The notes under the pieces are model-generated. The model saw only the letters and a program-made list of their open reading frames with translations, had not been told where the DNA came from and ran no database searches. 64,000 nucleotides of DNA. Origin: Leifsonia sp. CL147 (GTDB lineage Bacteria > Actinomycetota > Actinomycetes > Actinomycetales > Microbacteriaceae). Positions 4,301 to 16,275 of this stretch are shown in pieces (within the stretch, counting starts at the first letter, position 1; each line of letters starts with the position of its first letter). Position numbers and translations under genes: made by a program. Location: contig NZ_FOTM01000005.1 of assembly GCF_900114565.1 (NCBI RefSeq), positions 62,001 to 126,000 of the forward strand, written 5' to 3'.

Positions 4301-4894
4301 ATGGCACGACGAGGGTCCTATGCGAAGGGCGTGGCGAAGCGGGACGAGATCCTGGAGGCCGCGCTGGAAGTGATCGCGCGCGAGGGATACCGCGGCGCGT
4401 CCGTGAAGGAACTCGCCGAGGCGGTCGGACTCAGCCAGGCGGGCCTGCTGCACTACTTCGACAGCAAGGACGAGCTGTTCACGGCGATCCTCCGCAAGCG
4501 CGACGAGGTGGACTCGCGCCGGTTCGGTGCGATGGACGACGACGCCCCCCTGGAGCGCATCCGCGACGGCTTCGTGGATGTCGTGCGCCACAATGCCGAG
4601 GTCCCCGGCCTGGTGCAGCTGTTCTCCCGGCTCGCCGTCGAGGCCGGCGACCCGGAGCACCCCGCCCACGCCTACTTCGTGGAGCGGACGGACTCCCTCC
4701 GCCGCACCTTCGCCGACGCCCTCGAGCGTCAGCAGCAGGAGGGACGCATCACCGGCCGCGTGCCCGCCGAGACGCTCGCGCGCATCGTGCAGGCCCTGGC
4801 CGACGGCCTCCAGCTGCAGTGGATGCAGGACCCGAGCGTCGACATGCCGGCGACCGTCGCCTCCCTCTTCGACCTGCTCGCCCGCGAAGCCTGA
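4301..4894 (+). CDS. TetR/AcrR family transcriptional regulator
   Basis: A 197-residue regulator. The N-terminal helix-turn-helix runs through EILEAALEVIAREGYRGASV, KELAEAVGLSQAGLLHYF and DSKDELFTAIL, a classical TetR DNA-binding domain at about residues 14-60. The C-terminal helical domain is a ligand/dimerisation region (LARIVQALADGLQLQWM near its end, as in TetR_C_6-like proteins). The ATG at 4301 directly follows a TATCCT -10 box by six bases, so a leaderless transcript is likely; longer upstream extensions have no support. It faces the MFS and GH3 genes and probably represses them until a sugar or aglycone binds. The ligand is unknown. Confidence 0.9.
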   Translation: MARRGSYAKGVAKRDEILEAALEVIAREGYRGASVKELAEAVGLSQAGLLHYFDSKDELFTAILRKRDEVDSRRFGAMDDDAPLERIRDGFVDVVRHNAEVPGLVQLFSRLAVEAGDPEHPAHAYFVERTDSLRRTFADALERQQQEGRITGRVPAETLARIVQALADGLQLQWMQDPSVDMPATVASLFDLLAREA

Positions 4895-4911: not shown

Positions 4912-5172
4912 CGACATTCGTCACGAATGTGCGCCTACCCGCGGGCCTGCGCGACATTCGTCACGAATGTGCGCCTACCCGCGGGCCTGCGCGACATTCG
5001 TCACGAATGTGCGGCTACGCACGCCCTAACGCAACATTCGTCACGAATGTGCGGCTACCCGCGCCCTAACGCAACATTCGTCACGAATGTGCGCCTACCC
5101 GCGCCCCAAGGCAACATTCGTCACGAATGTGCGCCTACGCACGCCCCAACGCAACATTCGTCACGAATGTGC
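4912..5172. repeat. Array of seven 17-bp palindromes at exact 40-bp period (family A, array 1)
   Basis: The palindrome ACATTCGTCACGAATGT with a single central base occurs seven times, the 15-bp cores starting at 4915, 4955, 4995, 5035, 5075, 5115 and 5155. Each is followed by a moderately conserved 25-bp linker (TGCGCCTACCCGCGGGCCTGC type, with variants). The array fills the gap between the stop of the TetR gene and the convergent tRNA-Val gene. There is no credible gene here. Linkers are similar to each other, so it is not a CRISPR array. A second array of the same core lies at 15121-15340. Confidence 0.95.
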
Positions 5173-5185
5173 GCGAGCTGAGGGG

Positions 5186-5258
5186 TGGGCCCTGCCGGGA
5201 TCGAACCGACGACATCCACGGTGTAAACGTGGCGCTCTACCAGCTGAGCTAAAGGCCC
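5186..5258 (-). tRNA. tRNA-Val (TAC)
   Basis: On the minus strand the sequence folds as a full cloverleaf. The acceptor GGGCCTT pairs with AGGGCCC, with one wobble. The D-arm is GCTC...GAGC, and the anticodon stem CCACG/CGTGG encloses loop TTTACAC with anticodon TAC. The T-arm is GTCGG TTCGATC CCGGC and the discriminator is A. The CCA end is not encoded. Length is 73 bases. Confidence 0.96.
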
Positions 5259-5387: not shown

Positions 5388-5858
5388 TCAGACGTGGGCG
5401 GGCAGGCGGTCCAGGGCCGCGCGGTACGCCTCGATGGAGCGGGCCTCACCCGGCGCCGTGATGAAGGAGGAGCGGATGATGCCGCGCTCGTCGATGAGGA
5501 AGGTGGCCCGGTTGGCGAAGCCCTTCTCGGGGAGGAACACGCCGTACTCCTTCGCGATCTCGCCATGCGGCCAGAAATCGGCCAGCAAGGAGAACGTGTA
5601 GCCCTCCTGCTCCGCCCAGGCCCGCAGCGAGTACTTGGAGTCGACGGAGATCCCCAGCAGTTCGACGCGGTGGTCCTCGAACAGCGCCAGGTTGTCCCGC
5701 AGCGCACACAGCTCGCCGGTGCAGGTGCCCGAGAAGGCGAGCGGGAAGAAGACCAGCGCGACCGCTTTGCGGCCGCGGAAGTCGCTCAGCCGCACGGTCT
5801 CGCCGTACTGGTTGAGCAGCTCGAAATCGGGAGCCTGAGTGTCGTTCTCGAGGGCCAT
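5388..5858 (-). CDS. AhpE-type peroxiredoxin
   Basis: A 156-residue thiol peroxidase that reduces hydrogen peroxide, alkyl hydroperoxides or peroxynitrite. It has the peroxiredoxin core [19 protein letters not shown]; the peroxidatic cysteine is near residue 46 and a second cysteine near 51. It also has SDFRGRKAV and the later [18 protein letters not shown], which closely resembles mycobacterial AhpE. The ATG at 5858 is preceded by AAGGA six bases upstream; an earlier in-frame start lacks one. The gene stands alone, divergent from aceE. Electron donor is not evident from the neighbourhood. Confidence 0.93.
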
Positions 5859-14504: not shown

Positions 14505-14520
14505 TAGCATACCGAGTATG
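14505..14520 (+). promoter_or_regulatory. Leaderless promoter and operator-like repeat of the PadR gene
   Basis: A TAGCAT box at 14505-14510 lies seven bases before the PadR ATG, so the transcript would begin at the start codon. The inverted repeat CATAC-CGA-GTATG (14508-14520) overlaps both the box and the ATG. PadR proteins bind short inverted repeats and often repress themselves, so autoregulation is likely. Confidence 0.5.
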
Positions 14521-15117
14521 TCGGTGCAGAACGGATTCCTTGCGCTCCTCACCCAGGGCGGGGCCTACGGCTCGCAGCTGCAGAGCGAGTTCCTCTGCCG
14601 GGCGGCGCACCGGCGACAGCTCAACCCGGGGCAGGTCTACTCGACGCTCGATCGGATGATCGACCAGGGCCTCGTCGCCTCCGCCGGGGCGACGGACGAC
14701 GGCCTCCCGCTGTACGAGCTGACGCCGGCCGGACGGGATGCGGCGGCCGCGTGGCTGAGTCACGGTCCCGTGGACAGCCGGCCCGACTGGGACGAGATGC
14801 AGGACCAGGTGCTCATCGCCGCCTCCCTCGATGGTCGCAAGGCCCTCGCGATCGTGGACGACTACCGCGCGGCGTTCGAGGAGAAGATCCGCTACCTGAG
14901 GCACGAAGCGGACTCCCGGGCCCTCCTCGCCGCGAACCGTGCTGCGGAGTTGGGTGCGAAGGCCGCCATCGAATGGCTGGACGAGGTCGCCGCGATGCTC
15001 CGCGCCCATCCGACGGCCCTGGTGAAGCCGCGCTCCCCCGAGCGCCCGCGCCGCGGCCGGAAGCCCGCCGCTGAGTCTGCCGCCGATCCCGCCCCTGCTC
15101 CCGCCCCTCGGGACTGA
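14518..15117 (+). CDS. PadR family transcriptional regulator
   Basis: A 199-residue regulator with an N-terminal PadR winged helix (FLALLTQGGAYGSQLQSEF, then NPGQVYSTLDRMIDQGLV and YELTPAGRDAAAAWL). A helical PadR C-terminal domain follows (KALAIVDDYRAAFEEKIRYL), then a basic, proline/alanine-rich tail of about 30 residues. The winged helix reads DNA and the C-terminal helices dimerise. The target is unknown; the operator-like repeat at its own start codon suggests autorepression. A palindrome array begins three bases after its stop codon. Confidence 0.88.
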   Translation: MSVQNGFLALLTQGGAYGSQLQSEFLCRAAHRRQLNPGQVYSTLDRMIDQGLVASAGATDDGLPLYELTPAGRDAAAAWLSHGPVDSRPDWDEMQDQVLIAASLDGRKALAIVDDYRAAFEEKIRYLRHEADSRALLAANRAAELGAKAAIEWLDEVAAMLRAHPTALVKPRSPERPRRGRKPAAESAADPAPAPAPRD

Positions 15118-15120
15118 CGC

Positions 15121-15340
15121 GATTCGTCACGAATCGCCGCTTTCCGGCGCTCAGAGTGACCATTCGTCACGAATCGCCGATTGCCCACTGGCGACTCCAA
15201 ATCGACATTCGTGACGAATCACGGCTTTCCGGCGCTCAGAGTGACCATTCGTCACGAATCACGGCTTTCCGGCGCTCAGCGTGACCATTCGTCACGAATC
15301 ACTGCTTTCCGGCGCTCAGAGTGACCATTCGTCACGAATG
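15121..15340. repeat. Array of six 15-bp palindromes at 40-45 bp period (family A, array 2)
   Basis: The core ATTCGTCACGAAT occurs at 15121, 15161, 15206, 15246, 15286 and 15326 (15-bp units), so the period is 40, 45, 40, 40, 40. The third copy has G instead of C at the central base. Linkers here are of a different type from array 1 (CACGGCTTTCCGGCGCTCAG) and can form a small CCG/CGG hairpin. The second linker is divergent and longer. The last copy continues with GTGCC as in array 1. The array fills the gap between the convergent PadR and DUF1684 genes. Confidence 0.95.
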
Positions 15341-15347
15341 TGCCGGG

Positions 15348-16208
15348 TCAGTGGAGGAGCTCGCCCTGCTTGTCGAGGACGTTCTTCTCGCCCGCCTCGA
15401 TCGGCACCGAGAAGCGGTTCTGCGCCGGAGGCAGCGGGCAGTTGAAGTTGTAGCTGAACGCGCACGGCGGCAGCACCGCGAGGTTGAAGTCGAGGGTCAC
15501 GGTTCCGTCGTCGTTGGGCACGACGAAGAGGAACCGGCCCACCGAGTACGTGCTGTCCCCGTTGGTGCTGTCCGAGAACACCAGCTGGAGCGCGCGGCCC
15601 GCCTTGAACGCGGCGAGGTTGTAGTCGACCCCGTCCTTGGTGAACGTGATCTCGCCGGGGATGACCATGTCGCGCGTCGCGCCGTCGTCCTTGAGGTGCT
15701 CGAAGCCGACCGTCTTCCCGCCCTCGATCGGGCTGAAGGCCGCCGTGATGATCCACTCGGGGTTGAACGGGAACGCGTCGATGGAGCCGAACTCCTGGAT
15801 GGCGTCGGAGTTCGCATCCCACACCCGCAGCGCGTAGTCGCCGTCCTCACTGGCGATGACGAAGCCCGTCACCGTGTCGCTGAACCGGATGGCGCCCGGG
15901 TTCGGATCGTTCTTGCCGCGAACGATCGCGGAGCCGTCGACGAGCACCTCGTCCACGAAGATGTTGTCGGTCGCCTGCGCGGTGACCTTGAGGCCGGACT
16001 GTCCCTTCGGCAGCGGCGACCACAGGCCCGGCACACCCCACACCGGCTGCTCGGACTCCGGGTCGCCGGTGATCCACTGCGTGTTGACGAGAGCGAGGTT
16101 GCCCTGAGGCGCGGTGACCGCCTGTTCGCGGCGGGCGCGATAGCGCGCGAGCACGGCATCCGGGTCGGTGCGGTCGGCGTGTTCGCGTGCGGTGGCGGTG
16201 TCGGTCAT
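15348..16208 (-). CDS. DUF1684 domain protein
   Basis: A 286-residue soluble protein of the DUF1684 family. Conserved features include WSPLPKGQSGLKV near the N-terminal third, the central FPFNPEWIITAAF and the C-terminal DFNLAVLPPCAFSYNFNCPL and PPAQNRFSVPI, where the family typically has a Pro-Pro-Cys-Ala-(Phe/Tyr) stretch. No enzymatic role is established for the family. The ATG at 16208 is preferred because GAGG lies about nine bases ahead; an ATG three codons earlier is possible. The 3' end abuts the palindrome array. Confidence 0.82.
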   Translation of the reverse strand: MTDTATAREHADRTDPDAVLARYRARREQAVTAPQGNLALVNTQWITGDPESEQPVWGVPGLWSPLPKGQSGLKVTAQATDNIFVDEVLVDGSAIVRGKNDPNPGAIRFSDTVTGFVIASEDGDYALRVWDANSDAIQEFGSIDAFPFNPEWIITAAFSPIEGGKTVGFEHLKDDGATRDMVIPGEITFTKDGVDYNLAAFKAGRALQLVFSDSTNGDSTYSVGRFLFVVPNDDGTVTLDFNLAVLPPCAFSYNFNCPLPPAQNRFSVPIEAGEKNVLDKQGELLH

Positions 16209-16275
16209 GGTCTCCATCCTCGGTCAGGTACCCCGTCACAACCAACTCCGACACTCGGGCATTCCGCCCGGGACC

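Follow-up and report, generated by a model that had tools for sequence, protein, structure and literature searches.

Genes and repeat arrays at the locus

The window, i.e. the whole stretch of 64,000 nucleotides of Leifsonia sp. CL147 that we analyzed, has a G + C content of 66-69% and carries two arrays of one short palindrome, both lying between converging genes (Table 1). Array 1 consists of seven identical 17-mers, ACATTCGTCACGAATGT, starting at positions 4914, 4954, 4994, 5034, 5074, 5114, and 5154, so that the step is exactly 40 bp. The 13-bp cores of these 17-mers start at 4916, 4956, 4996, 5036, 5076, 5116, and 5156, and all of them have C as the centre base on the + strand (7/7). TRF reported the same period of 40 with 91% matches. 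A previous sequence-only reading of this locus, which described seven copies of a 17-bp palindrome kept without change at an exact 40-bp period, was therefore correct on both points, while the linkers, given there as 25 bp, are actually 23 bp long around the 17-bp palindrome, or 27 bp around the 13-bp core.

Array 2 is made of the same element, with six cores at 15122, 15162, 15207, 15247, 15287, and 15327 (steps of 40, 45, 40, 40, and 40 bp) whose centres are C or G. When up to two mismatches to the 13-mer core were allowed, the window gave 26 strand matches against 1.04 expected, and this number was reached in none of 100 dinucleotide shuffles of the window.

Both arrays lie close to the ends of the neighboring genes. 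The first core of array 1 is located 21 bp behind the stop codon of the TetR-family gene, and the 3' end of the convergent tRNA-Val gene is 13 bp past the end of the array and 15 bp from its last core. In array 2, the first core lies 4 bp behind the stop codon of the PadR-like gene and the last core 8 bp from the 3' end of the convergent gene. The TetR neighbor, behind which the palindromes had been noted, looks incidental because the element adjoins many unrelated genes.

Table 1. Features of the window at and around the two arrays
Feature	Coordinates	Strand	Description	Basis
Array 1	4914..5170	.	Seven copies of ACATTCGTCACGAATGT, step 40 bp	Sequence, pattern scan, TRF
Array 2	15122..15339	.	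Same element, six cores	Pattern scan, TRF
TetR-family regulator gene	4331..4894	+		Own gene caller; Pfam TetR_N, E 7e-16
tRNA-Val(tac)	5184..5258	-	Convergent with the TetR-family gene	ARAGORN, Rfam
Peroxiredoxin-like gene	5388..5858	-	Family name by inspection	Own gene caller
PadR-like regulator gene	14518..15117	+		Own gene caller, Pfam
Gene convergent with the PadR-like gene	15348..16217	-		Own gene caller

Copy number and distribution

The core ATTCGTSACGAAT occurs in 456 copies in the 3.78-Mb genome of this strain (G000), in which its reversed control has 0 copies, and 324 pairs of cores are exactly 40 bp apart. The sample of this genome comprised all of contigs C15 and C16, C17 beyond its first 20 kb, and the window. 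These 427 kb are above average in core density because the contigs were chosen for the cores listed on them. They contain 19 arrays and 100 exact cores. Among the distances between neighboring cores in this sample (up to two mismatches), 70 of 83 are exactly 40 bp, and the remaining 13 are 35, 45-47, 52, and 73 bp.

Within the genus, a looser form of the core, ATTCGNNNCGAAT, occurs in 22 to 459 copies in 22 of 28 genomes and in 0 to 4 copies in the other six (G004, G006, G007, G012, G017, and G022), while its reversed control occurs at most once in any of the 28. The paired general core was found in 6 of 299 genomes of the family, which are all six members of the genus that were drawn, and in none of the 293 genomes from 84 other genera. 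Single exact cores were present in 20 of the 27 other genomes of the genus and in 3 of 32 from other genera. No exact core was found in the 18 genomes to which named loci belong, three of Agromyces among them. Among the matches listed, with near records left out, a pyruvate-dehydrogenase-like protein of the window (AceE by inspection) is closest to named proteins of Agromyces (86-87%) and Humibacter (86%), which points to Microbacteriaceae as the most likely family. Searches of viral contigs, plasmids, and phages found no matches to the element. In the genomes compared, the paired element is confined to one bacterial genus, where it occurs in many copies between and behind genes. Some cores lie near contig ends (C14:343 and C15:203065 in G000, the latter on a contig ending at 203432, and C4:1 and C34:16 in G020), which suggests that arrays may break assemblies and be under-counted in draft genomes.

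Architecture of the unit

Because several relatives carry doublets and not long arrays, the unit could be recognized as a 53-bp dyad that consists of a core, a 27-bp linker, and a second core, the two cores being 40 bp apart. The core has the form ATTCG[T/G]-N-[A/C]CGAAT with a centre that is nearly always C or G, and it varies with the species. While G000 has ATTCGTSACGAAT, the genomes G002, G013, G015, and G021 have ATTCGTGCCGAAT, often inverted against ATTCGGCACGAAT, and ATTTGGACCAAAT together with ATTCGGTCCAAAT was found at one place in G011. The 40-bp step is constant despite these species-specific variants. What lies in the middle of the unit also differs among species: it may be a third core, another palindrome, or A/T triplets alone. 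Cores 20 bp apart, often three in a row, occur in G001, G005, G009, G014, and G020, the middle in G026 is mostly another palindrome, ATTCGTGSCACGAAT, and in G019 and G023 it has A/T triplets only. Thus the 40-bp step recurs at independent loci and in species with another core, and 20-bp steps occur in five genomes, which answers the expectation of the sequence-only reading that a protein-binding array should show consistent spacing elsewhere.

In 61 units of G019 and G023, positions 1-3, 11-13, 20-22, 32-34, 41-43, and 51-53 are at least 90% A/T, and the other linker positions are less than 30% A/T except for 15 and 39, which adjoin the cores. G027 and G013 agree with this profile, with at least 80% A/T at the triplets, and in G000 the pattern is partial, with about half A/T at 20-22 and 70-80% at 33-34. 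The distances other than 40 bp at the sampled loci of G019 and G023 are mostly 25 or 35 bp (19/32), i.e. 5 modulo 10. All 221 cores of the form ATTCGTNACGAAT in the sampled DNA of G000, G019, G023, and G027 had C or G at the centre; one listed core of G001 has an A/T centre. This centre and the odd dyad fit the dimer-type site that had been suggested, and the dyad and the spacing are conserved while the linker letters are mostly free, as in an array for a dimeric protein. In contrast, the proposal that all sites face nearly the same side of the DNA has to be modified, since 40 bp corresponds to 3.8 turns at 10.5 bp per turn; sites at this step would share a face only if the DNA were held near 10.0 bp per turn.

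Position relative to genes

Using genes called with a simple codon-usage caller, we placed the 19 sampled arrays of G000 in 11 convergent, 5 co-directional, and 3 divergent spacers, and 0 of them inside genes. Arrays were present in 10 of 48 convergent spacers of at least 20 bp and in 8 of 218 other spacers (p 2e-4). With three divergent and five co-directional cases, the arrays of this genome give no clear support to a strict 3'-end role. Among 60 loci of G013, G019, G023, and G027, which were chosen because they carry a core pair, 38 are convergent, 22 co-directional, and 0 divergent, and the other spacers of the same stretches are 5 convergent, 48 co-directional, and 35 divergent. In a contiguous 400 kb of G023, the general core is present in 7 of 67 convergent spacers. 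The element often lies 9 to 12 bp from the stop codon, which may reflect short spacers because convergent spacers that lack an array are often 4 to 50 bp long. Three of the G000 arrays adjoin tRNA genes, two of them directly behind 3' ends (tRNA-Val and tRNA-Leu) and one between tRNA-Arg and tRNA-His. Elements at 3' ends could also be tolerated there instead of being useful.

Convergent spacers hold further dispersed inverted-repeat families, both in G023 (C1:1600001-2000000, loci L239-L258) and in G000. Examples in G023 are at offsets 108520, 209928, 225885, 308429, 363591, and 375405, for instance with arms containing GAGTACGC, and those in G000 are at C15 45518, 79883, 99823, and 153018 and at C16 21169 and 70852, for instance with arms near CCCCACCGTCGAGTACACAAAG. 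It seems that several such palindrome families occur at 3' ends in the genus.

At the scale of the chromosome, exact cores occur all round the 4.42-Mb chromosome of G023 outside about 0.85 Mb (C1:3818349-4418190 and 1-250925) that has no exact core, and the part of G019 that matches this region has few exact cores among those listed. Because this gap, which holds for the exact core only, lies on one side of dnaA (at 349 kb), there is no clear macrodomain pattern.

Selection on arms and linkers

For the comparison of G019 and G023, we used 17 of 20 orthologous spacers with cores on both sides; the other three were left out because of large differences in copy number or length. The ATTCG/CGAAT arms changed at 5 of 528 sites (0.9%), a figure to be about doubled to approximately 2% for two branches because the cores were defined in G023, and even the doubled value is roughly tenfold below that of the linkers, which changed at 205 of 1072 sites (19.1%). 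The three centre positions changed at 35 of 159 sites, and the flanks of the elements differ at 10.6% of sites. At the centre base, 18 changes were flips between C and G and one was a change of class.

The linkers show a second constraint. Of the changes at A/T letters of the triplets, 16 gave the other A/T letter and 6 gave G/C. The corresponding counts were 2 and 23 for A/T letters elsewhere in the same linkers (p 5e-6) and 21 and 145 for those in the flanks (p 8e-9). The triplet places had been defined from the profile of G019 and G023 themselves, the same genomes as tested, and this test was made after a test of class over whole linkers and the positional profile. Over whole linkers, the A/T versus G/C class was kept no better than in the flanks (59:55 versus 402:304, p 0.31), and G/C sites of the linkers were not specially kept (40:20 versus 381:159 in the flanks). 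A/T character is thus kept at a few fixed places besides the arms, which we regard as a mark of DNA shape. The suggestion that selection acts on the palindrome itself is supported by the contrast between arms and linkers in these two species. The accompanying statement that the linkers drift needs a limit, as they do not drift freely because the fixed triplets remain A/T.

Growth and turnover of the arrays

We tested 25 core clusters of G023, of which 22 had both flanks in the G019 DNA and three had no ortholog there. Cores were present in G019 at 20 of these 22 places and absent from 2, part of the G019 loci having been picked because they carry a core pair. Ten of the comparisons were made on stretches chosen by projected coordinates, after a partial list of G019 cores was known, and cores were found in 8 of them. 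L190, one of the 20 places with cores, has flanks 0.8 kb apart, and L180 is a clean empty spacer and hence a presence/absence difference between the two species. At L194, G023 has a ladder and the G019 ortholog an unrelated long hairpin, a state that looks like the replacement of one 3'-end element by the other. Local expansion is seen at C1:42567-42989 of G019, where 12 general cores correspond to 4 at about C1:1813827 of G023.

Over longer distances, turnover of the places is high. With the peroxiredoxin-like gene as the anchor for finding the place of array 1 in 27 relatives, the exact array behind tRNA-Val was found in a single one of the 28 genomes of the genus. Four of the 27 relatives, judged by eye, have one doublet with another core at this place, that of G021 being degenerate, and no tRNA was found in the corresponding stretch of G006 and G019. 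The neighbor genes of six G000 arrays or loci were also found in the DNA of relatives. Two of these places are common, one behind the same epimerase gene in G000, G019, G023, and G027 and the other behind mnmA (named from Pfam tRNA_Me_trans) in G000 and G002; the remaining four (C15 33360, 114558, 176152, and 194253) have no core near in the relatives.

Linkers within an array are near copies of one another (on average 23.6 of 27 positions identical in G000), while the identity of linkers across sampled loci is within the column-shuffle range in G000, G019, G023, and G027. In G013 it exceeds this range; two loci there share identical linkers and lie next to a 1.3-kb duplication (90% identity). 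These observations indicate local growth of the arrays, with no sign of recent transposition of single units at the sampled loci of the five genomes. In Leifsonia sp. CL147, the elements have expanded in place through tandem duplication of the 40-bp step.

Interpretation

The paired half-sites, the A/T triplets phased at approximately 10 bp, and the 20/40-bp step suggest a dimer that oligomerizes along a face of bent DNA. With moderate confidence, we read the element as a genus-specific, REP-like extragenic element that acts at the DNA level as a platform for a putative oligomeric DNA-bending protein.

An action at the RNA level, in which the palindromes form two-way hairpins that serve as terminators without a U-tract or stabilize mRNAs or tRNA precursors, would agree with the position of the element close downstream of stop codons, be it on one side or on both, and at the tRNA genes described above. 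The first 106 nt of the array are predicted to fold strongly as a transcript (z of -6.1 and -9.3), the linker consensus is dyad-symmetric, and in one relative the L194 spacer lacks the element and holds another hairpin. We nevertheless regard this explanation as unlikely. An intrinsic terminator, a G + C-rich stem followed by a T-run, was rejected for array 1, as 0 such sites were found between 4700 and 5400 of the window (mean of 0.3 in shuffles), in agreement with the sequence-only reading that the array is not a terminator. Nor were compensatory changes, as expected of an RNA structural element, found in the linker halves or the core flanks. When the two linker halves were exchanged between copies, pairing was as good as in the original units (204 to 1541 of 2000 permutations reached the observed value in G023, G019, G013, G027, and G000). 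For the bases flanking the core, such an exchange even improved pairing in four relatives (1991 to 1998 of 2000); in G000, the corresponding numbers for the core flanks were 1948 for all cores and 1807 when each array contributed one core. In RNA, a loop base could vary freely, yet the centre was C or G in every one of the 221 sampled cores. Because the core arms hardly vary, covariation says nothing on the core itself, which may have an RNA role.

Mobile palindromes of the REPIN or MITE kind, selfish or neutral, could pile up where they are least harmful. Patchy copy numbers, from 0 to 459 cores within one genus, the presence/absence difference at L180, locations typical of REPs in the available part of PMC3733652, and several other dispersed palindrome families in the same kind of spacer all speak for such an origin, which we consider quite improbable in view of the following. 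The Y1 transposase (PF01797) was found in 0 of the 28 genus genomes, while 5 of 14 controls were positive, and among the sampled loci only those of G013 that adjoin the duplication had inner sequence in common as recent copies would; the REPIN/RAYT system was rejected on these two grounds. Across sampled loci, linkers were no more alike than column shuffles allow in 4 of 5 genomes, two species that differ by about 10% have most places in common, the arms are under selection, and the viral contigs, plasmids, and phages had no matches. Strong sites for DNA gyrase, relieving positive supercoils between converging genes as reported for E. coli BIME-2, would likewise account for elements downstream of genes; the excerpts of PMC6379681 describe gyrase sites as over-represented in BIME-2, and the triplets phased at approximately 10 bp resemble the phased 10-bp G/C variation described in parts of PMC6379681 and PMC12324340. 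The letter preferences of gyrase given in the available part of PMC12324340 (-4G/+8C, -2A/+6T, and +1G/+4C) imply an even dyad, in contrast to the odd, base-centred dyad of the core, and do not predict ATTCG. Windows with at least five of the six preferred letters made up 1.37% of the arrays versus 0.59% of the whole sampled DNA in G000, 0.62 versus 0.52% in G023, and 0.84 versus 0.53% in G019, an excess that is modest by raw count in the three genomes, and we judge a gyrase site to be decidedly unlikely.

Under the preferred reading of a DNA-level platform, a dimeric, oligomerizing protein would recognize the ATTCG half-sites and bend or wrap the phased DNA, and the resulting nucleoprotein block might insulate neighboring 3' ends. 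To do so, the block could halt read-through RNA polymerase arriving from either direction or hold supercoils in place between converging genes. A genus-specific chromosome-architecture system, in which the putative oligomeric DNA-bending protein and the ladder sites mark tens to hundreds of 3' ends as bidirectional roadblocks or insulators and in which site and protein co-evolve between species (cores ATTCGTSACGAAT, ATTCGTGCCGAAT, and, at one place in G011, ATTTGGACCAAAT), is a more speculative and somewhat doubtful extension. In orthologous spacers, the constraint at the DNA level can be read directly as frozen arms, triplets restricted to A/T, a fixed phase, and no covariation, which makes the element a clean case for finding a binding protein and for testing the role of palindromes at converging genes. 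A dedicated binding protein, should there be one, would represent a novel type of roadblock at 3' ends or of nucleoid factor.

Comparison with known systems

Palindromes that are dispersed in many short copies and bound by one dimeric protein include matS (MatP), the Noc sites, and the SlmA sites. These are single sites that are not known to form fixed-step ladders at gene ends. The Leifsonia element resembles them in being a short palindrome with many dispersed copies, and its ladder with a fixed step distinguishes it from them. CRISPR arrays share with it regular palindromic repeats and non-identical spacers, but here the repeats are 13-17 bp long with an interchangeable centre base, the linkers within an array are related, and 19 arrays occur in 427 kb of one genome. 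CRISPR was rejected, as the sequence-only reading had also concluded, since the linkers here closely resemble one another within each array and are not unique spacers. The E. coli BIME-2 elements, REPs in tandem that gyrase cleaves, likewise form intergenic palindrome arrays downstream of genes; the Leifsonia element differs from them in its sequence, its shorter and odd dyad, its exact 40-bp step, a link to gyrase that is putative, and the lack of a Y1/RAYT gene among the 28 genus genomes.

The closest likeness is to REP elements. According to the available part of PMC3733652, these are short extragenic palindromes in tens to hundreds of copies, with variants by species and frequently in dimers, located near 3' ends and chiefly in the spacers of convergent and unidirectional genes; the diagrams of two genomes there place the REPs of convergent genes mostly less than 20 bp from both 3' ends. 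The same paper describes CGTC REPs without a dedicated transposase and calls the roles of REPs in supercoiling, termination, and mRNA stability hypothetical. In the broad sense of many short extragenic palindromes, mostly at 3' ends, the Leifsonia element is a REP, with 456 copies and 0 of 19 arrays inside genes, so the earlier statement that it is not a known feature type was too strong, at least by the copy numbers and 3'-end places that PMC3733652 describes in this part. In contrast to the GTAG and CGTC families as presented there, it has no unpaired tag and no covarying stem, and it adds a fixed 40/20-bp ladder and the constraint on A/T triplets. The tagged super-families were rejected, because by inspection no fixed tetranucleotide flanks the cores in the listed units, CGTC being inside the core itself. 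The main text of PMC3733652 contains no word beginning with "actinobacteri", and among the matches listed (titles and starts of abstracts) in the literature on actinobacterial and Leifsonia repeats, REP/REPIN, BIME and gyrase, and roadblocks, a description of the element was absent. Taken together, the absence of a GTAG/CGTC tag, a RAYT gene, and covarying stems and the ladder geometry place the element as REP-like but outside the tagged families. While the REP kind itself has long been known, the fixed-step ladder is a new form of REP-like element.
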